Shown here: positions 1,328-11,692 of the stretch, in pieces
Layout of the letters: every line of letters starts with the position of its first letter
Numbering within the stretch: position 1 is the stretch's first letter
Origin: a virus
DNA: 35,733 nucleotides
Strand: one strand, 5' to 3'
IMG/VR virus record: IMGVR_UViG_3300045747_000105
Coordinates: 1-35,733 of that record
Program-made: the position numbers and the translations under genes
The notes under the pieces: model-generated
What the model was told of the DNA's origin: nothing
Database searches by the model: none
Seen by the model: only the letters and a program-made list of their open reading frames with translations

Positions 1328-1657
1328 TTATTCGGCTACGTTTCGATTGTAGTCGTACTTACGCTGCTTGTCGTCATCATCCTCAAAGGATGCCTGAATC
1401 TCGGCGGCGGATTGAGCCTCAGCCATGGTATCCTTCATTCGGGTAAGGTCTAGGGCTTGCTGCACCACCTCGATGTACTTCTCCAGGAAGTGTTGAGCCT
1501 TCTGGAGGTCAGTCATGCCGTTCTTCTTCTTCCAGCGGGTCACGTACTTGGTGATCTGGGCCTGGAAGTAATCCAACTCGTTGGCCACCACGTAGTCCCA
1601 ATGCTGTATGAAAGCATTGTAATGCTCACCACCTACTTGCTTGTCATTTGCACTCAT
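1328..1657 (-). CDS. DUF3310 domain protein (SaV-like)
   Basis: A 109-aa protein with the family signature near its start: KQVGGEHY, then HWDYVVANELDYFQAQITKY and K-K-N-G-M-x-D-L-x-K-A-x-H-F-L-E-K-Y-I-E. Phage DUF3310 proteins are small helical proteins of uncertain function, sometimes labelled nucleotide-kinase-like. Here it overlaps the HD nucleotidase gene by 4 bp and follows the thymidylate synthase homologue, which fits a nucleotide-pool role but does not prove one. The tail is rich in Asp and Lys. ATG 1657 has GGAGAAG upstream. Confidence 0.8.
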   Translation of the reverse strand: MSANDKQVGGEHYNAFIQHWDYVVANELDYFQAQITKYVTRWKKKNGMTDLQKAQHFLEKYIEVVQQALDLTRMKDTMAEAQSAAEIQASFEDDDDKQRKYDYNRNVAE

Positions 1658-2127
1658 CTCAACTTCTCCAAAAATGCGGACGCCGTAGTTGTCGGAGGTA
1701 TGCGGGCGTCCAGATACGCAATACCTGCCCTGACGATTGATTCCATCTTGGTGTTACCCATATCGACCTCAGCCTGGCAGTACATGATGAGCTCCAGCAT
1801 GTCGGCCCACTTGATGCACTCCTGCTCTTCCGGCAGCAACCCGTAGTCGATGCCCATACGCTTGTTGAAGCTATCCTCCAATCTGGCTAGTGAATCCCGC
1901 AACTCACGACTGGCCCACTTAGCAGTTGCTGGGGTGTCACCCGTCACTGACTCAGCAAGGTCGTGGGTCAAGGCTACGTGGAGCAGCATAGCGCTGGGCT
2001 TGCAAATCTCAATGAGAATCATTGCTACGCCCCAGCTATGCTCGGCCACATTCTGTGTGTGGATAGTACGCTTGGTGTGGAACCGCTTGGTCACTCCAGC
2101 GTTGTACAACTCTTTGAATCTGTTCAC
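1654..2127 (-). CDS. YfbR-like HD-domain 5'-deoxynucleotidase
   Basis: A 157-aa HD phosphohydrolase. The metal-binding set is visible: H30 in NVAEHSWGVAM, H55-D56 in LTHDLAESVTGD, and D109 in IKWADMLEL. The order and the TGDTP motif after the HD pair match the YfbR type, which dephosphorylates deoxynucleoside 5'-monophosphates. The start is GTG 2127, overlapping the stop of the thymidylate synthase homologue (GTGA). In a phage that may replace thymine with a modified base, such an enzyme could remove dTMP or other competing monophosphates. That role is inference from context; the fold call is firm. Confidence 0.85.
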   Translation of the reverse strand: MNRFKELYNAGVTKRFHTKRTIHTQNVAEHSWGVAMILIEICKPSAMLLHVALTHDLAESVTGDTPATAKWASRELRDSLARLEDSFNKRMGIDYGLLPEEQECIKWADMLELIMYCQAEVDMGNTKMESIVRAGIAYLDARIPPTTTASAFLEKLR

Positions 2128-3107
2128 TTCTCTTTCCTTTCAAGCCACTCTAAGCACGCCACCTGTACGGCTGTGTCGGCAATGGTGCTGGCGTAGCTGA
2201 CGGCTCGGATGAAGCTGCCCTCTTTGTAGCACTTCCACGACTTGGCCATCGGCTGGAGTACCCAGTTGACGTATGACGACTCATAGCTGCCGTAGAAGTC
2301 ATCCGCTAGTATGTTGTCCACAAACAATTGGAAGTTTTTCATTGCTGCCCACGGAGACTCCGCATCCGCAAACAGGGGTACGTGCCGCCACTCGGGAGTG
2401 TAGATGTCCTCTCGGGCAGCGAATGGGTGCTCCATCAACGGGAAGTGCTTCTGATAGATGTGCCAGTCATTGCTGACCTGCGTGTACGACCCCACGGGTA
2501 CGCCAATGGCTAGGGCCACAAATTCCTGTAGCACAGACATGTGTACAGCGTTGGCCCCGTAGCAGCCCCAGACGATGTCGTTGGAGCGATTGAGCACCGT
2601 CATGTCGAGCTTGTCGCCCTTGATGCGGAAATAGATGTGCGTGTTGCAAGGAATGTCTTTGGACGCAAAGGCGCTGTCGCCATCGGTGAATCCGTCCCAC
2701 ATGGCGATTACAGCCCTGCGTGTGTTGGGTTCGCGCTTCATCAGTTCGACCACATCGGCTATCTGGTTGCGGTTGAAGTGTTTGCGCCATCGGTAGCCAT
2801 AGGCACCGTTGAGGGTTTCCCCGTCATCGCTGAAGTCCGACATGTTGGCGGCGTAGAGGCTGACGAAGGCGGTGTCGTTCCGTCCAGCCAGCATCCAGAT
2901 GGACTCCATAATGTGGAAGTACGGGTTGGCGTTGCGACGGATGTCAAACAACATGCGCTCGGTCGGTCGGGCGTACACGGTAGACACTGGGGTAGGGTAC
3001 GTCTTGGCGAGACCATTGCGGCTAGTCTCGGTGATATGGTTGCCTCGGATAGCCCAGAGGGCATCCGAGTAGGCGTCATTGACGTTATTTGCACGAATAA
3101 CTAGCAT
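2124..3107 (-). CDS. Thymidylate synthase family; candidate dUMP hydroxymethylase
   Basis: A 327-aa homologue of thymidylate synthase. Visible elements are the phosphate-binding arginines R130-R131 in NTRRAVIAMWD, the catalytic Cys C154 in KDIPCNTHIYFRI, R174-S175-x-D177 in NRSNDIVWG, and N186, close to where normal enzymes have the pyrimidine-selecting Asn. Asn there favours dUMP over dCMP. The usual G-L-P-F-N is replaced by G-C-Y-G-A-N, one residue longer, so the pocket differs from housekeeping ThyA. The enzyme makes dTMP or, in hypermodifying phages, 5-hydroxymethyl-dUMP. Its operon with aGPT-Pplase-like proteins favours the latter. ATG 3107 has AAGGA upstream; the start overlaps the previous gene by 23 bp. 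Confidence 0.85.
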   Translation of the reverse strand: MLVIRANNVNDAYSDALWAIRGNHITETSRNGLAKTYPTPVSTVYARPTERMLFDIRRNANPYFHIMESIWMLAGRNDTAFVSLYAANMSDFSDDGETLNGAYGYRWRKHFNRNQIADVVELMKREPNTRRAVIAMWDGFTDGDSAFASKDIPCNTHIYFRIKGDKLDMTVLNRSNDIVWGCYGANAVHMSVLQEFVALAIGVPVGSYTQVSNDWHIYQKHFPLMEHPFAAREDIYTPEWRHVPLFADAESPWAAMKNFQLFVDNILADDFYGSYESSYVNWVLQPMAKSWKCYKEGSFIRAVSYASTIADTAVQVACLEWLERKEK

Positions 3108-3360
3108 TGTATTCCTTCAGTAGTTGGTTGAGTTCAGCCTTGATACGTCTTGCCTCGTCACCCTTCCAACCTGCGGCGTTGGTCAGGAAACGGAGCACGA
3201 TGTCGTCTGCGGGGTCCAAGCCATAGGTATCGCCTATCGACTTGAGCGATAGCATAGCGTTTACGTATGGCTTGCACCAAATCTGGTACACCTTCTGGTG
3301 GGGAGGTGGACCCCAAGCGGCTATTATGTCAGCCGCAATCTTGTTGAGTGGACGAGACAT
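3085..3360 (-). CDS. Conserved phage protein, 91 aa, unknown function
   Basis: The product starts MSRPLNKIAADIIAAWG and contains Y-x-x-A-M-L-S-L-K-S-I-G-D-T-Y-G-L-D followed by F-L-T-N-A-A-G-W-K-G-D-E-A-R-R-I-K-A-E-L. I recognise this arrangement (PYxxAM, DxYGxD, FLxNAxxWxGxxAxxIKxEL) as a recurring uncharacterised small phage protein, but know no function. ATG 3360 has GGAG upstream, and a candidate promoter lies 28 bp further up. The gene overlaps the thymidylate synthase homologue by 23 bp. Confidence 0.7.
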   Translation of the reverse strand: MSRPLNKIAADIIAAWGPPPHQKVYQIWCKPYVNAMLSLKSIGDTYGLDPADDIVLRFLTNAAGWKGDEARRIKAELNQLLKEYNASYSCK

Positions 3361-3387
3361 GTCGTTCTCCGTAGTTGCGAAGCCTCT

Positions 3388-3417
3388 ATTTTACCGTCTA
3401 AACGTATGGGATAGTAA
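3388..3417 (-). promoter_or_regulatory. Candidate middle promoter for the nucleotide-pool genes
   Basis: On the minus strand TTACTA (3417-3412), an 18-bp spacer and TAAAAT (3393-3388). The segment TTTAGACGGTAAAATAG is nearly the same as that before the gene at 6510, and both -10 boxes lie 24-28 bp before their start codons. It sits over the end of the methyltransferase-like gene and would drive 3360 down to 1328. Confidence 0.55.
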
Positions 3418-4123
3418 CGAATCGCTTGTTACCGTATGCTGCCCCAGACCGTTTGGCCACGCAGTAGAACTCACCTGCCTCTCGCATGGCGTCGGTAATG
3501 GTGACCCCCAGTTGGCTGAGCCACATGTCGTAGGCTTCCAGATATGACTCAGCTGTGGGTAGCACCTCCCCACCGAAGTCCTTGGCATAGGTTTTGTAGT
3601 TCAGGTGAATCTTGTGGCATGAGGTGTCGGTAAACCAGACGATGATTTCTGGCTTAATACGCAACGCCCTTGAGACATTGTCCCACATTTCCTTGACGCC
3701 CTTGGTCTTGATGGTTCCCACCGACATGTCGAGCAGCAGGACGTCATAGATTGTCAAGTCTGCTGATGCCAGCATCTTCATAGAGTCATCAATGGCGTGC
3801 ACGTTGGGGTACAGGCTGCTGAGGTAGTCCAGGCAGGTTGGGTCACGCTCAAAGAAGAAGTGGGTGGCGTTGGCTACCGATTGGTCCACCACTTGAGCCG
3901 ACGCGCCGACGCCACCGAAGGCATGCAGCACGTATGGGGCGTCCAAGTCTTCAATAGCCTTGGGCAGCAGGGTCGTGAGGCAGGTAAGGTGGCGTACCAC
4001 GTCACGGGTTGACTCCTTGAGGAACTCTTGATATGAGTCCCGTACAGGGGTATCCATCGTTGTCTCCAGACCAACGGGCAAATTGATGGAAAATCCATTC
4101 ACTTTCAGGGTTTCTACGTGCAT
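3398..4123 (-). CDS. Rossmann-fold, class I methyltransferase-like protein
   Basis: A 241-aa protein. Residues 64-76 (YVLHAFGGVGASA) form a beta strand and glycine loop like SAM motif I. The acidic E92 after strand 2 (HFFFERDP) would bind the ribose. D112-D113 (HAIDDS) and LLLDMS at 129-134 look like later strands of the fold, with D131 at the catalytic strand. A C-terminal helical part follows. No typical NPPY or PC motif marks it as a standard DNA-base methyltransferase, so its substrate is unknown. It lies between the thymine-modification-like genes and the thymidylate synthase homologue, making it a candidate tailoring enzyme. ATG 4123 has GAGAGGA upstream. Confidence 0.55.
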   Translation of the reverse strand: MHVETLKVNGFSINLPVGLETTMDTPVRDSYQEFLKESTRDVVRHLTCLTTLLPKAIEDLDAPYVLHAFGGVGASAQVVDQSVANATHFFFERDPTCLDYLSSLYPNVHAIDDSMKMLASADLTIYDVLLLDMSVGTIKTKGVKEMWDNVSRALRIKPEIIVWFTDTSCHKIHLNYKTYAKDFGGEVLPTAESYLEAYDMWLSQLGVTITDAMREAGEFYCVAKRSGAAYGNKRFVTIPYV

Positions 4124-4161
4124 TTTCTATTTCCTCTCGGGGTTAGGTAGGCCGGCAATCA

Positions 4162-4249
4162 GCCTAGGGCTTTGTAAATCTTTGTCAGAGCGTTTATTTT
4201 CTCTCGGGTAGGGGGTAGGTACTACCCGAGCGAAAAACGCGCCCTAGGC
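4162..4249. promoter_or_regulatory. Nested inverted-repeat element in the 120-bp gap
   Basis: Outer arms GCCTAGGGC (4162-4170) and GCCCTAGGC (4241-4249) enclose a second inverted repeat CTCGGGTAG (4203-4211)/CTACCCGAG (4222-4230). On the minus strand the gene end also makes a small CGCC-TAG-GGCG hairpin followed by CGTTTTTC, which could act as a weak terminator. A related element with CCTAGG arms and repeated GGGTA lies at 12963-13036. Confidence 0.45.
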
Positions 4250-5068
4250 GGCTGGTTTATACTTGGATTTAGGCTTGCCTCCATAGTATTTCGTGCGGAC
4301 GTACTTGGAGAACTCGCACAGGACGTTCTGGGTGTTCTGGGCACAAAGCCCCATACCAGTATTGTCTTCAATAATGTGGCGTACCTCATTGACTTCCTTG
4401 CGGAATTGTGCCTCACCGATGGCCTTTTGCGGGTGTTCGAACAGGTAGTTCAGCCCAGCAGTAGACCCTGGTCCGACACCGCACCACGTGGCGTAGTCAT
4501 TGGCGAACTCTAGGGGCATGTAGTCCATCTTGAGGTCGGCAATGATCTGTCCCCGCAGGAATGTACCGATGCCTGTAACCGCCAACTTCTTCTCTGCTGA
4601 CTCAAGATTGTCGTCCAAATCGATGGGGTTCTTCTTGAGTTGGTCGTGTAGGTTGGTCAGTACACGGGCTATGATGACCTCTTTGGGCTCCCCACCTGCG
4701 GAGTAGCCACCTGTGATCATATAGGCGCTGGTCCAGACCTTGACCCCTGTAGCCTTGCGTCGGGCTATGGCACGTATGAACTGCGCTGGGTCCCACTGGT
4801 ACGGGAAGTCAATCTCTGCTAGCGTCTCCGGCAGGTTGACCATACGGGCCAAGCCGGCAGCGAAGGGCAAGCTCTCGTAGCCCCTGCCTTGGTACAGCCA
4901 GGTGTACACCCACTTGGTGACCTTGTCATCCTCACGGCGCACGTTACAGAATCTGTACCCAGCCATGATGGGGTCGTTGGTCCATGGAGGTAGATACCCA
5001 AGTGCTTTGCGTTGGCGCATAACTTCTCGGGTTTTTACCCAATGGACTAGATCGGGTAGGTGCTTCAT
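4244..5068 (-). CDS. aGPT-Pplase1 / 5-hmdU DNA kinase helical-domain protein
   Basis: A 274-aa protein with the marks of the alpha-glutamyl/putrescinyl-thymine pyrophosphorylase clade 1 (5-hmdU DNA kinase helical domain). They are PWTNDPI (28-34), RFCNVRREDDKVT (39-51), the helix-hairpin-helix-like GIGTFLRGQIIADL (166-179) and GVGPGSTAGLN (197-207). In hypermodifying phages this family acts on 5-hydroxymethyl-dU in DNA, placing a (pyro)phosphate on the hydroxymethyl group for later displacement. No P-loop is present in this protein. The likely kinase is a separate gene at 5585-6136 in the same operon. It overlaps the upstream gene by ATGA. The family call is from motifs; the reaction is by analogy. 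Confidence 0.75.
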   Translation of the reverse strand: MKHLPDLVHWVKTREVMRQRKALGYLPPWTNDPIMAGYRFCNVRREDDKVTKWVYTWLYQGRGYESLPFAAGLARMVNLPETLAEIDFPYQWDPAQFIRAIARRKATGVKVWTSAYMITGGYSAGGEPKEVIIARVLTNLHDQLKKNPIDLDDNLESAEKKLAVTGIGTFLRGQIIADLKMDYMPLEFANDYATWCGVGPGSTAGLNYLFEHPQKAIGEAQFRKEVNEVRHIIEDNTGMGLCAQNTQNVLCEFSKYVRTKYYGGKPKSKYKPAA

Positions 5069-5340
5069 GGCCCGTTCCTCAGATCATGGCTCATGGCCGT
5101 TGTTCCGCAGCGCGAACAGGTGACGCTCATGCAGCAGCCGTCAGTCGACTCCCAATCAGGACCGTCCCACTTGTGCTCGCAGGTTCCACGTGGATCTGAG
5201 CCGCAGGCGCAATAGCATGCGTCAGGGTTGAATGTTGAGTGAAGCGACACACCGTACTCGGCTTCCAGCTTCTTGTGCCGCTCTTGCACTGCTGCGTTAC
5301 GCTTGGCCCGCAACTCGTCAAAGTTAAATAGCTTGCTCAT
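5065..5340 (-). CDS. Cys-rich small protein, probable zinc binder, 91 aa
   Basis: The N-terminal third is a charged helix (FDELRAKRNAAVQERHKKLE). The rest has C-Y-C-A-C-G, then C-E-H, C-C-M, and C-S-R-C-G-T-T, a pattern expected of one or two zinc ribbons. The final CSRCG is a typical zinc knuckle half. No named family is recognised. It sits between the P-loop kinase and the aGPT-Pplase1-like gene with ATGA overlaps on both sides, so it is made with them and could be a DNA- or partner-binding accessory. Confidence 0.65.
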   Translation of the reverse strand: MSKLFNFDELRAKRNAAVQERHKKLEAEYGVSLHSTFNPDACYCACGSDPRGTCEHKWDGPDWESTDGCCMSVTCSRCGTTAMSHDLRNGP

Positions 5341-5588
5341 GGTAATACCTTACGTAATGCGTCTATTGCTGCGTAGCACAGCTTGCCTTTGCCTGCCACG
5401 TTGTCCAAGGCCACAAGAGCCTGTTTTGAAGCTGTGCGCAAGCGTTCAATCTCCGCTGCCTGCTCTTTGACCTTGTTCCAAAGATCGTTGACCAGATAGC
5501 TTGTCCCCATGTGCATAGACATAGGCTGTCCCGGCAACTCAAGGCAACGGAATTGAGTTACTCTATCCTCAAGGCTCTCGGCGGTCAT
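5337..5588 (-). CDS. Small coiled-coil phage protein, 83 aa
   Basis: The product contains MGTSYLVNDLWNKVKEQAAE followed by a leucine/isoleucine heptad-like helix, and ends ALRKVLP. It resembles small phage proteins with a predicted coiled coil and no known function. ATGA overlaps couple it to the kinase gene upstream and the Cys-rich gene downstream; it has no clear Shine-Dalgarno of its own, so coupling probably drives its translation. Confidence 0.6.
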   Translation of the reverse strand: MTAESLEDRVTQFRCLELPGQPMSMHMGTSYLVNDLWNKVKEQAAEIERLRTASKQALVALDNVAGKGKLCYAAIDALRKVLP

Positions 5589-6136
5589 ATCAGAGCCAAC
5601 AGTTGGGGCAACATGGGCTGGTCGTGTTGTAGAATCTCCACACGATGACCCAAGTCAGGCAGACGCTTGCGGAGACGCTCAATGGTAGCGTGCTTGTCCT
5701 TCGTCAGCTGGGGGTTGAACTTGTTGATGCTACCATTGGACTTGCGTCGTGCTACGACACGCTCCAGGCATACGTCGATGGGGGTGTCAAGAAACACGTA
5801 CTTGTAGGAGTCACCGTACTGCTTGGAGTCAGTACCCATCGCACCGTAGTACGTGGATTGGAGCAAACCCTCGTGGACCACATGACCCATCTTGCCGTAG
5901 TAGTTCACCAGCTTCATTGCATCGGCTGCGGACGATACGGTGTCCATACCGCCGCAGTTGTTGTCGTATGAGCCCAACACGAACACTAACTCTTCCGCAC
6001 CTGGTACGTCCAGCATGTAGGCTTCCACCTTGCTGGCGATGTTACGCAGCTTGGTTACTTTGGATGCCTTCATTAACTCTCGGACAGCAGTGGTCTTGCC
6101 TGCTCCCGAGCATCCGTGAATTTTTAAGATCGTCAT
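5585..6136 (-). CDS. P-loop kinase of the hypermodification type
   Basis: A 183-aa kinase with Walker A GCSGAGKTT (8-16), then N-C-G-G-M-D-T (60-66), the acidic HEGLL (88-92), LDTP (116-119) and an Arg-rich lid CLERVVARR (123-131). The CGG-x-D-T plus EGLL combination is what I know from P-loop kinases in phage clusters for thymine hypermodification. It could phosphorylate 5-hydroxymethyl-dU in DNA together with the helical-domain protein at 4244-5068. It could instead phosphorylate the free nucleotide 5-hm-dUMP. Both ends overlap neighbours by 4 bp. The kinase call is firm; the substrate is inferred from neighbours. Confidence 0.75.
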   Translation of the reverse strand: MTILKIHGCSGAGKTTAVRELMKASKVTKLRNIASKVEAYMLDVPGAEELVFVLGSYDNNCGGMDTVSSAADAMKLVNYYGKMGHVVHEGLLQSTYYGAMGTDSKQYGDSYKYVFLDTPIDVCLERVVARRKSNGSINKFNPQLTKDKHATIERLRKRLPDLGHRVEILQHDQPMLPQLLALI

Positions 6137-6510
6137 ACAGTTGCCTTTGGTTTCTCTGTCAACCCGACAGCAGGGAGTGGGGGAATCTGCCCCAATTCTT
6201 CCATGAATTTGAAGCTACCGTGGCGGTAGGGCTTCTTGGCTACGTCGCCGTGAATCTTAGCATGCTCGTCCAGCAGGTCCATGCCAAAGTTCCAGAGGTA
6301 CTCATAGTTCTCTTGCGACTCGTTGCACCACTTGACCCACTCGTTGTCGAGGGGCAGAAGCTCAATGGAGCGAGTGATCGGGGGCTTGCGAAATTGCTTC
6401 CATACGGTGAACAGAATCTGCGTCACACGAATGGGGTACGTGATGATTTCATCAACTGTGAGAAGGTCAATAGCCTCCTCATTGTCGTCTGCTGGTATCT
6501 CAATTAACAT
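6133..6510 (-). CDS. Protein resembling the C-terminal part of pyrimidine-dimer DNA glycosylases
   Basis: The segment WVKWCNESQENYEYLWNFG followed by L-L-D-E-H-A-K-I-H-G and the end P-P-L-P-A-V-G-L-T resembles a phage family related to pyrimidine-dimer DNA glycosylase, where W-x-x-x-S-x-x-N-Y-x-x-L is conserved. The typical N-terminal D-x-D-P and H-C-D-K-H motifs of that family are not visible, so enzymatic activity is doubtful. At 125 aa it is shorter than most relatives. ATG 6510 has TAGGAG upstream and is the first gene after a candidate promoter, so it leads the modification sub-operon. Confidence 0.4.
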   Translation of the reverse strand: MLIEIPADDNEEAIDLLTVDEIITYPIRVTQILFTVWKQFRKPPITRSIELLPLDNEWVKWCNESQENYEYLWNFGMDLLDEHAKIHGDVAKKPYRHGSFKFMEELGQIPPLPAVGLTEKPKATV

Positions 6511-6534
6511 TGTTACTCCTACGTTGAAAACTAT

Positions 6535-6563
6535 ATTTTACCGCTAAAGTAGTTGGTGGTAAA
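6535..6563 (-). promoter_or_regulatory. Candidate middle promoter for the modification genes
   Basis: On the minus strand TTTACC (6563-6558), a 17-bp spacer, then TAAAAT (6540-6535). The core TTTAGCGGTAAAATATAG is nearly identical to the element at 3388-3417, and the -10 box lies 24 bp before the start codon at 6510. It fills the 56-bp gap between the helicase and the next gene. Confidence 0.6.
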
Positions 6564-6566
6564 GGA

Positions 6567-7976
6567 CTATCGTATGGCACTTTTGGCGTAGTCAATTAGG
6601 GCTTGATCTACTCGGGACTGCGTGGTGTCCTTGGCCGTAATGGCGTCCAACACCTTATCGTCGGTCGTGTCGTCCGAGAGTATGATATGGTTCTTGACCA
6701 CAGGAGAATCCTGTCCCTGACGCCAGACGCGTGCGATAGCTTGTAGCCATAGCTCCAAATCCTGGTTGAGACCAAACCAGCAGATGTCGGAGCACGCACC
6801 TTGTAGGTTGAGACCGTGCCCTGCTGACCGCGGGTGACCTATGAGCAGGGGTATCTTCCCAGCGTTGAAATCAGCCACTACCTGGGCTATGTTCTTGCAC
6901 CCAGTAATGTTGATGGCGTTCGGGAAACGCTTCATAATGCGGGCACCGTCAGCGATGAACTCGTACATGAGCAGTAGGGGTCTGCCCTGTAGCTCTTCCA
7001 TGAGCTCCGTCAGGGCGTCCAGCTTCTCATCGTGTATGGGTAAGAACTCACCGCGTTCCTCTTGCGAGTAGATGAAGCCATTGGAGACCTGCCGGCACTT
7101 GACCCCCAACGATGCTTTGTTGAACGCTGGTATGGTCTCGTCCAGCACCTTGATCAGGAAGTCGCGCTCCAGCGTCTTGTACTGCTTGAGCACAGCAGGC
7201 GGCAACGTGACCCGTATGGGATTGTGGATCAACTCCGGCATAGCCAGCTTGTCCTTAGCCCGCATACGGAGCAGCATGTGCTGTACCCTAGCCATGATCT
7301 GCTCTTCAGCGTGTACGTTCATCTCATAGACGTACTGGATGTACGGGTGAGGATGCATGAACATCTGACGGAAGTGCGTAATGTACTCTCCCAAGGCTTT
7401 GCCGTCGTCAAGGAAGTAGCACTGACCGAACAGCTGATGGAGACCATTCGGGGCTGGCGTGCCCGTGGCAATGTTGCGGTACTTGATCTGCGGCAGCACT
7501 GGCTTCAGCATTTTGAAGCGTTGAGTTTGTATGTCAGCGAATCGGGTGGACTCGTCAGACAGTATGAGGTCAAACCCCCACTTGTTGGGTACGCCCAAAC
7601 CTCGCACACCCATCAGCTTGGTAGGGTTGAGCACCTTGTGGAGACTCTCAGGGTTGATGACGTAGACGTCAAAGCCCATACCGAGTAGCTCATCCCGTTC
7701 CTTGTCGGTACGCTGGCACAAATCGCAGACTTTGAGGTGGTTGAAGTCCTTCCACTTCTGAGCCTCAAACGGCCAGACGGTCTGGGCCACCCGTAGGGGT
7801 GCGACCACCAGTGCCCTGCGAAGCTCCTTGCGCTCCAACAGCACGCAGATAAGGGCAAGGAATGTGGATGTCTTGCCCAGGCCTGGGTCCAACAGTAGGC
7901 CTGAGTTGGTACGACCCAAGGCGAAGGCCAATGCCTCTTCTTGGTAGTCGCGGGGCGTCCAGTTAATAGGGGCCAT
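6567..7976 (-). CDS. SNF2-like DEAD/H-box helicase
   Basis: A 469-aa superfamily 2 ATPase. Motif I is DPGLGKTS (30-37), motif Ia is VVAPLRV, motif II is DES (141-143) in the SNF2-type context LILSDESTRFA, motif III is TGTPAPNG, and the C-terminal RecA lobe has GHPRSAGHGLNLQ and a Q-x-x-x-R-x-x-R-Q-G-Q motif VI. Such proteins are common in phage replication operons and translocate on or remodel duplex DNA. The start at 7976 overlaps the aGPT-Pplase2-like gene by 14 bp. The C-terminus reaches a 56-bp gap with the next promoter. Confidence 0.9.
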   Translation of the reverse strand: MAPINWTPRDYQEEALAFALGRTNSGLLLDPGLGKTSTFLALICVLLERKELRRALVVAPLRVAQTVWPFEAQKWKDFNHLKVCDLCQRTDKERDELLGMGFDVYVINPESLHKVLNPTKLMGVRGLGVPNKWGFDLILSDESTRFADIQTQRFKMLKPVLPQIKYRNIATGTPAPNGLHQLFGQCYFLDDGKALGEYITHFRQMFMHPHPYIQYVYEMNVHAEEQIMARVQHMLLRMRAKDKLAMPELIHNPIRVTLPPAVLKQYKTLERDFLIKVLDETIPAFNKASLGVKCRQVSNGFIYSQEERGEFLPIHDEKLDALTELMEELQGRPLLLMYEFIADGARIMKRFPNAINITGCKNIAQVVADFNAGKIPLLIGHPRSAGHGLNLQGACSDICWFGLNQDLELWLQAIARVWRQGQDSPVVKNHIILSDDTTDDKVLDAITAKDTTQSRVDQALIDYAKSAIR

Positions 7977-8733
7977 ACGATTTCCAATCTTGTTTGCGGG
8001 GCAGTAGCACTGACTCGAACATGCCCTTCATCTGCTCGTGGCGCAGGTCGATGTCCTCGCCAAACTTGTATGTGCCCTTCTCCAACCCACGTATGGCGCA
8101 CATGATCGTCTCTGCCTCAGGTATGCCGCAGTTGCGGGTCGGAGCACCTGGGGCGATGAGGTCATCTATCCAGCTGACTATGTCCGCCAGTACGTCCTTG
8201 AGGGCATAGTTGGGGTAGACACTCTTGGCGCATTTGCGGGGTGACTCCGGCAGCAGGGTAGTTGCTACGGGCATCGAGAGTTTGACGGGCAGACCCATAG
8301 TGCGGTCAAAGATGTCCATGGCCTTCCACCGGAAGTACTCACCAATCTGACAACCCTCAAAGTTTGCCTCGATGTTGTAGTACAAATCAGCGTAGTTGTC
8401 ACGGTACATTGCCCTCCAAATATCCGTGGGCTCTCCCATACCGCTGAGCTTCATCATGGCGTCCCAACCCTTGTCGCCACGGAAGTGCCTGCGCTCTGAG
8501 CCACGCTTAGCAGTCTTGTAGTGGGTAGCAGTGTACGCCCAAAAGCTCTTGGCGTCCGCAGCCTCGACAGCTGCCCGTGCGTCGTAGAACATGAATAGGT
8601 ACAACGCATACTTGTCGGCCCACTCGTCGTTGTTAGCGGTGCGGGAGGCGTGCATGAAGTCGTACATGGGGTCAAGCTCTTGCGTAGTGACCAGGTCACG
8701 TGCGAATTGCTTGTATTTATCTGTTATCAACAT
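7963..8733 (-). CDS. aGPT-Pplase2 / amino-acid:DNA transferase-like protein
   Basis: A 256-aa mainly helical protein. Motifs fitting the alpha-glutamyl/putrescinyl-thymine pyrophosphorylase clade 2 are T-x-x-x-x-T-A-K-R-G-S-E-R-R-H-F-R-G ending at 86, IGEYFRWKAMD (130-140), ESPRKCA (163-169), ETIMC (208-212) and GTYKFGEDID (220-229). In studied hypermodifying phages this clade transfers an amino acid onto the activated 5-hydroxymethyl-uracil in DNA. It sits between VRR-NUC and helicase genes, overlapping both, about 3 kb upstream of the clade 1 gene. I recognise the motif order from memory, so profile searches should confirm it. Substrate amino acid unknown. Confidence 0.65.
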   Translation of the reverse strand: MLITDKYKQFARDLVTTQELDPMYDFMHASRTANNDEWADKYALYLFMFYDARAAVEAADAKSFWAYTATHYKTAKRGSERRHFRGDKGWDAMMKLSGMGEPTDIWRAMYRDNYADLYYNIEANFEGCQIGEYFRWKAMDIFDRTMGLPVKLSMPVATTLLPESPRKCAKSVYPNYALKDVLADIVSWIDDLIAPGAPTRNCGIPEAETIMCAIRGLEKGTYKFGEDIDLRHEQMKGMFESVLLPRKQDWKSYGPY

Positions 8734-9806: not shown

Positions 9807-9911
9807 TCAGGACTTGCAGAAGTAGCTGTAGTCACCTCTGATATGGTTACCCGAGAACTGACCAGTGGGCAGCGCCTCTTTGCAGCAATCGCAGGAGAGT
9901 AGCTTGGTCAT
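9807..9911 (-). CDS. 34-aa Cys-rich protein ending at an internal TGA
   Basis: Starting at ATG 9911, inside the stop of the DNA polymerase gene (ATGA overlap), the product begins MTKLLSCDCCKEALPTGQFS and ends Y-F-C-K-S before TGA 9807-9809. C-x-C-C and F-C-K-S look like a zinc ribbon cut off just before its last ligand. The frame remains open past the stop to 9660 (next entry). Either this is a truncated gene, or the TGA is read through. Confidence 0.5.
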   Translation of the reverse strand: MTKLLSCDCCKEALPTGQFSGNHIRGDYSYFCKS

Positions 9912-11692
9912 AGCACCCTCTGAGTAGGTGTCAGGTCGTGCCAATTCTCACCTTGCTCCATCTCAACGATGAAGGGTACATCGAATCCCTCCAAGTCCTC
10001 CATGGCGGAGGCGAGCAAGTCCACTGTCTCTTTGAGGTAGTCGGGGTGGACGCTGATGACGTTCTCATCGTGTACCGTCATTAAGAACCTGCCCTTGGGG
10101 TTCATAGAGTGGTAGCGTATGATGGATTCCTTGGTCTGATCGGCAGCAGTACCCTGAATCAGATGGTTGACGAGCTTATAGTTGAACGTCCATGAGCTAC
10201 CGTCAGCATTAACTTTGGGCTGCTCGACAGGTATAATGCGCTTGCCCCAGGTCTTCACTTGGCTGCGAGCCTCTACGCTGCGCTGGAAGTCCTGCAGCCC
10301 CACCATAGCCTTGAGATAGGCAATCTTGATCTGCCGTCCCTCAGCCATTGGTACCCCAAGCTGCTCGCTGAGGGCAGCTACCCCGGCACCGTAGATCAGG
10401 GAGAATCCGGTGATCTTGGCCTGCTTACGCTTGATGGCGAGTCCAGCCTTCTCCTTGACTAGTCTCACCGCCACCTCATGGAAGTCTGCTCTTGGATCAA
10501 TGCGGTAGATTTCACCCGCTTGCCCCTCAGCAAAGTGAGCCAATAGACGCATTTCTTGACCATTGTAATCCGCTGCCACCAGAATTTCTCCTGGGTCTGG
10601 AAGAATGTAAACCCGCATAAAGGGCAGCGGCAGGAAGCCAGCAAGAATGCCTGTGTAGTCAAAGTCAAATTCCGTAGGCACGTTTTGTAGGTTTGGATTC
10701 GAGCAGCTGAGTCGCCCTGTGCGAGTACCGTAATCGTCACCTCTAACTGAGTTCCATGACGGGTGTAGGTGTCCGTCAGCCAGAGATAGGTCGAGCCACG
10801 GGCGCATAAATGTACCCAATAGTGTCTTAAGGGCACCCCGATACTTGAGAAGGGAGAGTAAGTCATCATCGTCCTTTATTGCGTCTTCAAGGGCTGACTG
10901 GGCGGTCGATACGCGGCCAGTCTTGGTCAGGGCCAGTTTGTACCCAGCTGCTACAAGGGCTTTGGCCACTTGGGCAGGGGTATCGATGGGGTAGTCGCCA
11001 AGTACAGCACGAATGGCGTCCTCGCACTGGCTGAGCATCACCTCGTACAGGGGAATGTCGTTGGCCAGACGGCCGCTGTCAATGAGTACGCCACGACGTT
11101 CAGCCCAGTATAGTATGGGAGCCAGCTTGAGTTCGCGCTCATAAGCCTCCAGCATGTTGCGTTGGACTATGGAGTCATACAGCAACTCGAACAGCAGCCC
11201 TGTACGCTCCACGTCCCCTATGCAGTACTCGCCAACTAGCCCACCTGGGGCTTTGGAGATATGTGCACCCCACGATTTGGAGTTGGAGGGTACGACACCG
11301 TGGGCCATTAGCCAGTCCCGTACAGCATCCTGCTCGTCAGGTGGTAGGCCCAGCAGACGCTCACTGCTAGGCTTGAGGGACACTGTCTGAGCCAGCGGAT
11401 TGTCGAGGTAGATCAGGTACATGGTGTCGTGGTACACCTTGGGCCACTCTAATCCCCAGTGCTCCATTGCGACGCCGATGTCGAACTTGGCGTGATGGAA
11501 GACAAGGGGTTCGTCCCAAACTGCTTGAAGGGCCAGACAGGCCTCAGCCTCGGAGCAGTTGTTCTCTGTGGGATGGCCAAACGCATAGTAGCGTCCGACA
11601 CCGTGTAGGGGCTTGATGCCCACGCCTACAGGTTTGGGGGATTTGCCTGATCCGTTGACGATGGCCTCTGTTTCAAAGTCTACAATATACAT
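9908..11692 (-). CDS. Family A DNA polymerase with 3'-5' exonuclease
   Basis: A 594-aa replicative polymerase. The exonuclease domain has DFET (D5, E7), FHHAKFD (D71) and YCIGDVERT (D160), all intact. The polymerase has TGRLSCSNPNLQNVP (325-339), motif A VAADYNGQEMR (D375), motif B KRKQAKITGFSLIYG (421-435) and motif C VHDEN (540-544). F430 aligns with E. coli Pol I F762, a residue reported as Phe or Tyr in mostly virulent phages and Leu in others. There is no 5' nuclease domain. It is preceded by a terminator and a TATAAT box, so it may begin its own transcript. Confidence 0.95.
   Translation of the reverse strand: MYIVDFETEAIVNGSGKSPKPVGVGIKPLHGVGRYYAFGHPTENNCSEAEACLALQAVWDEPLVFHHAKFDIGVAMEHWGLEWPKVYHDTMYLIYLDNPLAQTVSLKPSSERLLGLPPDEQDAVRDWLMAHGVVPSNSKSWGAHISKAPGGLVGEYCIGDVERTGLLFELLYDSIVQRNMLEAYERELKLAPILYWAERRGVLIDSGRLANDIPLYEVMLSQCEDAIRAVLGDYPIDTPAQVAKALVAAGYKLALTKTGRVSTAQSALEDAIKDDDDLLSLLKYRGALKTLLGTFMRPWLDLSLADGHLHPSWNSVRGDDYGTRTGRLSCSNPNLQNVPTEFDFDYTGILAGFLPLPFMRVYILPDPGEILVAADYNGQEMRLLAHFAEGQAGEIYRIDPRADFHEVAVRLVKEKAGLAIKRKQAKITGFSLIYGAGVAALSEQLGVPMAEGRQIKIAYLKAMVGLQDFQRSVEARSQVKTWGKRIIPVEQPKVNADGSSWTFNYKLVNHLIQGTAADQTKESIIRYHSMNPKGRFLMTVHDENVISVHPDYLKETVDLLASAMEDLEGFDVPFIVEMEQGENWHDLTPTQRVL

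Follow-up and report, generated by a model that had tools for sequence, protein, structure and literature searches.

Which thymidine derivative is built by a virus that appears to carry the shared core of a hypermodification pathway, and which enzyme would finish it? Hypermodification of thymidine protects DNA from many restriction enzymes, a known armour of phages against bacterial defences, and its chemistry varies with the finishing enzymes that act after a shared core. We analyzed the early operon of an IMG/VR viral contig (IMGVR_UViG_3300045747_000105; the whole 35,733-nucleotide stretch is called the window, and coordinates are its own), for which a first-pass annotation had proposed such a pathway at 2124-8733. 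By comparison with relatives, the window lacks an estimated 4 kb between its two ends. The features considered are as follows.

1315-1289, minus strand: terminator-like hairpin of 12 pairs, just past the last operon gene (from a consensus scan only)
1654-2127, minus strand: predicted HD-domain YfbR-like 5'-deoxynucleotidase (PF12917, E 6e-17), in 4-base overlap with the hydroxymethylase gene
2124-3107, minus strand: predicted dUMP 5-hydroxymethylase of thymidylate-synthase fold (PF00303, 77.5 bits, cut-off 24.3)
3085-3360, minus strand: small conserved protein of unknown function, overlapping the hydroxymethylase gene (phrog_13953, E 3.5e-16)
3398-4123, minus strand: divergent class I SAM-methyltransferase-fold protein, candidate tailoring enzyme (AlphaFold2 pLDDT 92.4, pTM 0.91)
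4244-5068, minus strand: predicted 5-hmdU DNA kinase helical-domain protein, aGPT-Pplase1 (PF18723 HMUDK_hel, 105.5 bits, cut-off 25, E 4e-30)
5585-6136, minus strand: predicted P-loop 5-hmdU DNA kinase, Walker A GCSGAGKTT (PF18748 HMUDK, 28.3 bits, cut-off 27)
6133-6510, minus strand: short, divergent member of the phrog_624 family (E 1e-5)
6567-7976, minus strand: SNF2/DEAD-type helicase (PF00176, E 3e-16)
7963-8733, minus strand: predicted amino acid:DNA transferase, ADDT or aGPT-Pplase2 (PF18724, 27.1 bits, cut-off 26.2)

The four enzymes named by the first-pass annotation (2124-3107, 4244-5068, 5585-6136 and 7963-8733) are all present as uninterrupted reading frames on the minus strand, and each scored above the Pfam curated cut-off of the family proposed for it, the kinase and the ADDT just above theirs. 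Their placement in one coupled operon also stands, with co-directional genes overlapping by 4-23 bases at several junctions (2124/2127, 3085/3107, 5065/5068, 5337/5340, 5585/5588, 6133/6136, 7963/7976 and 8717/8733); the interval given at the time omitted the HD phosphatase gene at 1654-2127, and the inventory did not mention the conserved ORFs 3398-4123 and 6133-6510. Three close contigs preserve the synteny of the set (protein identity 61-95%), and the pathway ORFs are all intact and under purifying selection, with dN well below dS. The small protein at 3085-3360 is kept in contigs L002-L004 and L013-L016. The helicase, a syntenic neighbour in most relatives, has a replication role and lies outside the modification chemistry.

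In the first step of the pathway that we propose, the thymidylate-synthase-fold enzyme would make 5-hydroxymethyl-dUMP while the HD phosphatase would change the pool of dTMP, and through these activities 5-hmdU would enter the phage DNA. Consistent with its earlier prediction as a dUMP hydroxymethylase, the product of 2124-3107 matches phrog_5131 (E 4e-105) and shares 40-43% full-length identity with M6/YuA/PaMx11-type enzymes, some of which are annotated as deoxyuridylate hydroxymethyltransferase. Its Cys154 and Asn186 are invariant across seven relatives, and its nearest solved structure is the hydroxymethylase 5b6d (E 8e-18), with thymidylate synthases behind. The genes for the HD phosphatase and the hydroxymethylase are neighbours in M6, PaMx11 and P26218 as well as in most relatives, and the phosphatase probably adjusts the dTMP/dUMP pool. 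A reading in which 2124-3107 is an ordinary thymidylate synthase, the DNA is not hypermodified and the other genes are relics can draw on a fold common to both enzyme types and on the fact that sequence alone gives no reliable reading of a modified base (PMC5977210). We consider it very improbable: clade, operon and the Asn186 context reject an ordinary synthase, the protein groups with the M6-type enzymes, and the intactness of the pathway ORFs, together with the selection acting on them, argues against relics, as does an ADDT that retains every invariant residue.

In the second step, 5-hmdU in the DNA would be phosphorylated on its 5-hydroxymethyl group by the P-loop kinase together with its helical partner. 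The window kinase aligns with its counterparts in M6 (gp54) and P26218, and the M6 and PaMx11 kinases used as queries find it at E 6e-15 and 1e-11, in agreement with its initial designation as a hypermodification P-loop kinase. The helical-domain protein, likewise placed correctly as aGPT-Pplase1, shares 28-31% identity with its PhiW-14, M6 and YuA homologues. The window appears to encode both components of a 5-hmdU DNA kinase, as judged from their sequence families.

The third step would fall to the ADDT, through which an amino acid or amine would displace the phosphate with its amino group to give an alpha-aminoalkyl-thymidine; the attached molecule may be glycine or some other amino acid or, as in PhiW-14, a polyamine from the host. 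The aGPT-Pplase2-like transferase of the first-pass annotation is borne out by a match of 7963-8733 to phrog_6364 (E 2e-31), a family that also matches other ADDTs, and by matches to ADDT relatives from PhiW-14, Rhodoferax P26218 and Acinetobacter (E 2e-16 to 3e-19). All 16 residues invariant in a 32-member ADDT alignment are retained, and on its own the protein matches the solved ADDT 25qc (E 2.5e-6) and the glycinyltransferase 8z2m (E 1.2e-4), supporting its classification as an amino acid:DNA transferase; its AlphaFold model from single sequence was of low confidence (pLDDT 37.5). Taken together, the window very likely holds a complete core gene set for the partial replacement of thymidine by a decorated thymidine. 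With families assigned from profile and operon evidence and chemistry taken from characterised relatives, these three steps are highly probable.

Known systems share this core. M6, ViI and PhiW-14 produce 5-NedU, 5-NeOmdU and putT, respectively, via 5hmdU and a 5hmdU DNA kinase (PMC6449724), and the M6-type cassette consists of the hydroxymethylase, Nmad5, aGPT-Pplase1, kinase, radical-SAM, PLP and aGPT-Pplase2 genes (PMC9476957). Pseudomonas M6/YuA has the hydroxymethylase, HD phosphatase, P-loop kinase, HMUDK helical protein and ADDT in common with the window, and in both the cassette lies close to a DNA polymerase gene. M6 carries PLP, radical-SAM and Nmad5 genes that the window does not have, whereas a SAM-methyltransferase-fold gene is present in the window and absent from the M6 stretch read; the two ADDTs are 24% identical and fall in different clades. 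The cassette of Pseudomonas PaMx11 (ADDT, FAD-dependent oxidoreductase, acetyltransferase, kinase, helical protein, hydroxymethylase and HD) contains the same core genes, with kinase, helical protein, hydroxymethylase and HD in the same order, but relatives of its FAD enzyme and acetyltransferase are absent from the window.

The expectation that the window holds no PLP, radical-SAM or acetyltransferase gene was upheld: M6 and PaMx11 proteins as queries found no relative of these, of the FAD-lyase or of Nmad5. In particular, M6 gp52 and gp53 had no window match by phmmer or iterated profiles, and relatives spanning the missing ~4 kb have no PLP or radical-SAM gene either. The window lacks the PLP and radical-SAM enzymes that characterise the M6-type 5-NedU pathway, and neither M6-type PLP/radical-SAM nor PaMx11-type FAD/acetyltransferase finishing has a homologue there to perform it.

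The best candidate for a step that would set the end product apart is the protein encoded at 3398-4123. It has no match in Pfam, PHROG or annotated phages, and its model points to a Rossmann-like SAM-binding fold of class I methyltransferases: a Foldseek search against the PDB gave Trm1 as the best match (E 1e-7) among 556 matches at E<=1e-3, and nearly all of the top 50 are SAM-dependent methyltransferases. Among aligned family members Gly71 and Gly73 are invariant, Asp94 is nearly so, and position 92 is Glu or Asp in most; the acidic position of motif I is His67 in the window protein and Glu in many relatives. The motif I glycines and the acidic residue after strand 2 are thus present, as expected of a class I methyltransferase. 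Its sequence resembles no characterised methyltransferase strongly (best profile match E 0.002) and lacks the classical DPPY motif, so the protein may have another role. It is 77-84% identical in L002-L004 and under purifying selection (dN 0.12-0.17 versus dS 0.63-1.08). At least 24 distinct relatives were found, every one within an ADDT operon; searches seeded by this protein alone return only hypermodification (ADDT) operons, and the gene was not found outside them at the sensitivity used. Fold, conservation and a dedicated association with ADDT operons are established for this protein, and we infer its substrate and reaction. As a homologue of M6 gp49, the gene upstream of the M6 ADDT, it is rejected (hhalign probability 0.2%).

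The distribution of finishing genes across the ADDT tree is consistent with a tailoring role. In the window clade (n=15) the methyltransferase-fold gene occurs in 13 members and PLP/radical-SAM genes in none, while a PLP, radical-SAM or FAD tailoring gene is found in 20 of 26 rows of the M6 clade and 0 of 54 in other ADDT clades. The methyltransferase-fold gene occurs in ADDT operons of two separate clades, directly adjoining the ADDT in one. Two M6-clade contigs, L075 and L084, carry it beside PLP and radical-SAM genes, so it is no strict substitute for them; strict exclusion is unsupported (Fisher p 0.26 among rows with kinase and hydroxymethylase), and a test on phylogenetically independent pairs had no power. 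The core set occurs without the gene in L048/L049 (L033-type contigs) and in L023. As for the phrog_624 member at 6133-6510, iterative profiles join it to full-length members beside the methyltransferase-fold gene in L015, L016, L017 and L033, making it a conserved operon part and recurrent neighbour. A dedicated partnership is rejected: its family is spread over no fewer than 588 phage records, with many cyanophages among them, and the ORF is therefore a linked neighbour only.

The pathway might instead end at the ADDT product, with 3398-4123 serving, for example, to methylate a different base or to regulate the operon. In PhiW-14, whose am37 mutant accumulates pyrophosphoryl-5-hmU in DNA before putrescine addition, the putrescine stays unaltered (PMC5977210), and the best annotated-phage matches of the window ADDT include PhiW-14 and not M6. 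This Delftia phage, with its alpha-putrescinylthymine pathway, has an ADDT and helical protein homologous to those of the window (E 6e-18 and 3e-16) and, like the window, no PLP or radical-SAM relative in the 49-kb stretch read. In the ADDT tree the window clade and the PhiW-14 pair lie on one side with weak support (84, an open fork); the two ADDTs are 28% identical and in separate sub-clades. Unlike the window, PhiW-14 is a large 157-kb phage with scattered genes, and no methyltransferase-fold relative was found in that 49-kb stretch. Moreover, the Rhodoferax P26218 sister clade (25 rows) combines ADDT, kinase, hydroxymethylase and HD without any of the tailoring genes that were tested, which makes a bare ADDT product plausible in nature. 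This minimal cassette, previously unannotated in the cultured phage P26218 and reported here, is shared with a Manatee Spring podovirus; both resemble the window in genome size and in a cassette beside polymerase and helicase, and differ in that no helical protein or methyltransferase-fold protein was found. Against an end at the ADDT stands the methyltransferase-fold gene itself, tied to ADDT operons in two clades and, at the sensitivity used, not found elsewhere, which is unlike the expectation for a general-purpose methylase. We regard this ending as unlikely, though less so than the other alternatives.

For finishing by 3398-4123 the chances are about even. The enzyme would complete the side chain, the simplest reaction being methylation of the amine or carboxylate there, and would stand in for the M6 PLP/radical-SAM or PaMx11 FAD enzymes; two ADDT lineages without PLP, radical-SAM or FAD finishing genes carry it. 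A precedent that works alike, with no homology claimed, is the wobble-uridine pathway of tRNA, in which MnmEG is followed by MnmC (cmnm5U to nm5U to mnm5U): an amino acid is joined through its amine to the uracil 5-methylene and SAM-dependent methylation follows (PMC9626948), although this pathway acts on tRNA with other addition enzymes. Transfer of the aminopropyl or aminocarboxypropyl part of SAM, lengthening a polyamine-like side chain, is a further reading. About one third of the weak PDB profile matches are spermidine synthases or aminopropyltransferases, one such enzyme appears in each of two Foldseek top-50 lists, and putrescine, the PhiW-14 group, is the natural acceptor of these enzymes. 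Yet by fold Trm1 and other methyltransferases match best, the sequence matches to aminopropyltransferases lie at E 0.02-0.7, and the Rossmann core is common to both, leaving this reading highly unlikely.

Taken as a whole, a thymidine-hypermodification pathway with SAM-dependent finishing is the probable explanation of the early operon. The kind of system is known, and this permutation of genes seems new. New here is 3398-4123 as a conserved operon part, a methyltransferase-like protein previously unassigned. Tentatively, and at somewhat less than even chances, it may be the founder of a SAM-dependent enzyme family devoted to finishing ADDT products, yielding a new class of DNA base: an N- or O-methylated aminoacyl-thymidine, the DNA counterpart of tRNA mnm5U, or an aminopropyl-extended polyamine-thymidine. 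A methyltransferase-fold protein that is tied to this pathway, in lineages lacking the finishing genes known so far, hints at DNA side chains that are new to science and at a compact group of enzymes able to install them.

All four protein families that the first-pass annotation had placed in a thymidine-hypermodification pathway are encoded in the early operon of this linear virus record (35,733 bases), each matching its Pfam family above the curated cut-off. The ADDT (amino acid:DNA transferase) and the kinase clear theirs narrowly and are backed by PHROGs, tblastn and alignments. A terminator-like hairpin lies just past the operon end.

Early operon of the window
9908-11692 to about 1328, minus strand: early operon, starting with the DNA polymerase gene (9908-11692); genes overlap at many junctions
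7963-8733, minus strand: ADDT, PF18724 (barely); aGPT-Pplase2 is its other name, the label on the phage Churro homologue
5585-6136, minus strand: 5-hmdU DNA kinase, PF18748 (barely)
4244-5068, minus strand: HMUDK helical protein, PF18723; its other name, aGPT-Pplase1, labels the phage AN14 homologue
2124-3107, minus strand: thymidylate synthase (TS) homologue, PF00303

Over its full length the TS homologue shares 40-43% identity with the M6/YuA/PaMx11-type enzymes; it retains the catalytic cysteine and carries Asn186 at the position held by aspartate in a CMP hydroxymethylase. In this family Asn favours uracil and Asp cytosine. The best solved relative of the window protein is a hydroxymethylase. 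The HD deoxynucleotidase gene (1654-2127) overlaps the TS-homologue gene, and an HD neighbour also adjoins the hydroxymethylase gene in M6, PaMx11 and P26218. Because 5-NedU in M6 DNA and putT in PhiW-14 DNA are both thought to come via 5hmdU (PMC6449724), a predicted hydroxymethylase is the economical reading.

In characterised relatives, DNA is made with 5hmdU, which a 5hmdU DNA kinase phosphorylates before an amine transferase substitutes it (PMC6449724); in PhiW-14 DNA a pyrophosphoryl-5-hmU intermediate was detected (PMC5977210). By the same steps, 5hmdU supplied by the hydroxymethylase would enter the phage DNA and be phosphorylated by the kinase, and the ADDT would substitute an amine at the phosphorylated base. 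The window ADDT keeps 16/16 invariant residues of a 32-member alignment and, as a single sequence, matches the solved ADDT 25qc (E 2.5e-6) and the glycinyltransferase 8z2m (E 1.2e-4); its far stronger profile scores are in part circular, since M6 gp51 is one of the aligned sequences. Some loci (L032:1353-2497, L033, L035, L041, L043, L056) have two tandem kinase genes between ADDT and helical protein, possibly for two successive phosphorylations, reminiscent of the pyrophosphoryl intermediate. M6 gp54 (L009:5686-6246) and phrog_800 are 5-hmdU DNA kinase homologues labelled 'terminase small subunit', which misleads automatic annotation of such phages.

The operon also holds ORF 3398-4123 (241 aa), for which Pfam and PHROG searches gave no convincing family and tblastn no match among 50,697 phage records. 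The protein is 77-84% identical across three related contigs and under purifying selection (dN 0.12-0.17 versus dS 0.63-1.08). An AlphaFold2 model from 21 sequences (pLDDT 92.4, pTM 0.91) has the fold of class I SAM methyltransferases in Foldseek (556 matches at E <= 1e-3; Trm1 top, E 1e-7; two phage proteins from metagenomes also match, at TM 0.70-0.72), and in the SAM site Gly71 and Gly73 never vary and Asp94 hardly does. Iterated profile searching of the loci brought up 24 distinct relatives, 24/24 in ADDT operons and mostly overlapping a pathway gene or within 300 bases of one. Because that first set had been fetched by ADDT, we searched viral contigs with the ORF as sole query; matches fell only in hypermodification operons, including a new contig, L097, where kinase, helical protein, hydroxymethylase and HD genes surround it. 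No member turned up in 84,980 genomes of bacteria and archaea, scanned at a sensitivity that reaches close relatives.

On a quick-method tree of 80 ADDTs (SH-aLRT support), the MTase-fold gene occurs in 13/15 rows of the window clade (support 98; one of the other two, L018, is cut off by the contig end), 7/10 of the L033-type clade (support 100; one of the other three truncated), 2/26 of the M6 clade (support 99) and 0/25 of the Rhodoferax phage P26218 clade (support 100), which usually lacks the helical protein too. PLP or radical-SAM (rSAM) genes occur in 16/26 M6-clade rows and a PaMx11-type FAD enzyme in four more; no tree row outside that clade has any of the three. The MTase-fold gene accompanies PLP/rSAM in two cases. 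The pattern is clade-level, with few events; an independent-pairs test has no power, and where a contig is short, a missing gene counts for little. In L048 (4997-5521) and L049 (5688-6212), a phrog_624 protein fills the slot directly upstream of ADDT, and the MTase-fold gene is naturally absent from an otherwise intact operon. Such proteins, which phage annotations call 'DNA binding protein' or 'endonuclease V/pyrimidine dimer glycosylase', adjoin or lie near the MTase-fold gene in both ADDT clades carrying it.

phrog_624-family copies
Window 6133-6510: short, divergent copy
L033:8546-9229: copy in that contig
L016:6492-6932: copy in that contig

The window record (ends 1 and 35733) is incomplete: in related contigs L011 and L012 the counterparts of its ends point towards each other, with about 4 kb of late region, carrying tail-fibre-like and lysis-type ORFs, in between. 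The earlier observation that the window has no PLP or rSAM gene was confirmed, and none of the 15 rows of its clade has one; since L011, L012 and L014 have no such relatives either, the absence is likely real.

Two further cassettes were seen. Cultured P26218 (36 kb; L005:9773-12777) carries an unannotated minimal set of ADDT (164 bits), kinase, TS-fold enzyme and HD phosphatase, in which no helical protein was found; we predict hypermodified DNA for this phage. An annotated environmental hydroxymethylase (Manatee Spring MW202897, L007:14195-15975; 42% identity) is a close relative, and a TET-associated glycosyltransferase (PF20691) and an HD protein replace kinase and ADDT beside it, which suggests glycosylated 5-hmU.

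The sequence evidence establishes the protein families, the intactness of the genes, selection, synteny and the fold of the extra protein; we infer which amine the ADDT attaches and that the MTase-fold protein methylates it. If glycine were the amine, N-attached to 5-methyl-uracil, the base would correspond in DNA to tRNA cmnm5U, whose side chain is finished by flavin-dependent cleavage and SAM-dependent methylation (PMC9626948). The likeness between the two pathways is one of chemistry, not homology. The hypermodification pathway itself is already known; Lee et al., in 2022, reportedly described side chains finished by radical-SAM, PLP, flavin and acetyltransferase enzymes, and many gene permutations in metagenomes. 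Given those finishing enzymes, a dedicated SAM-methyltransferase-fold component may be a new addition to the pathway.
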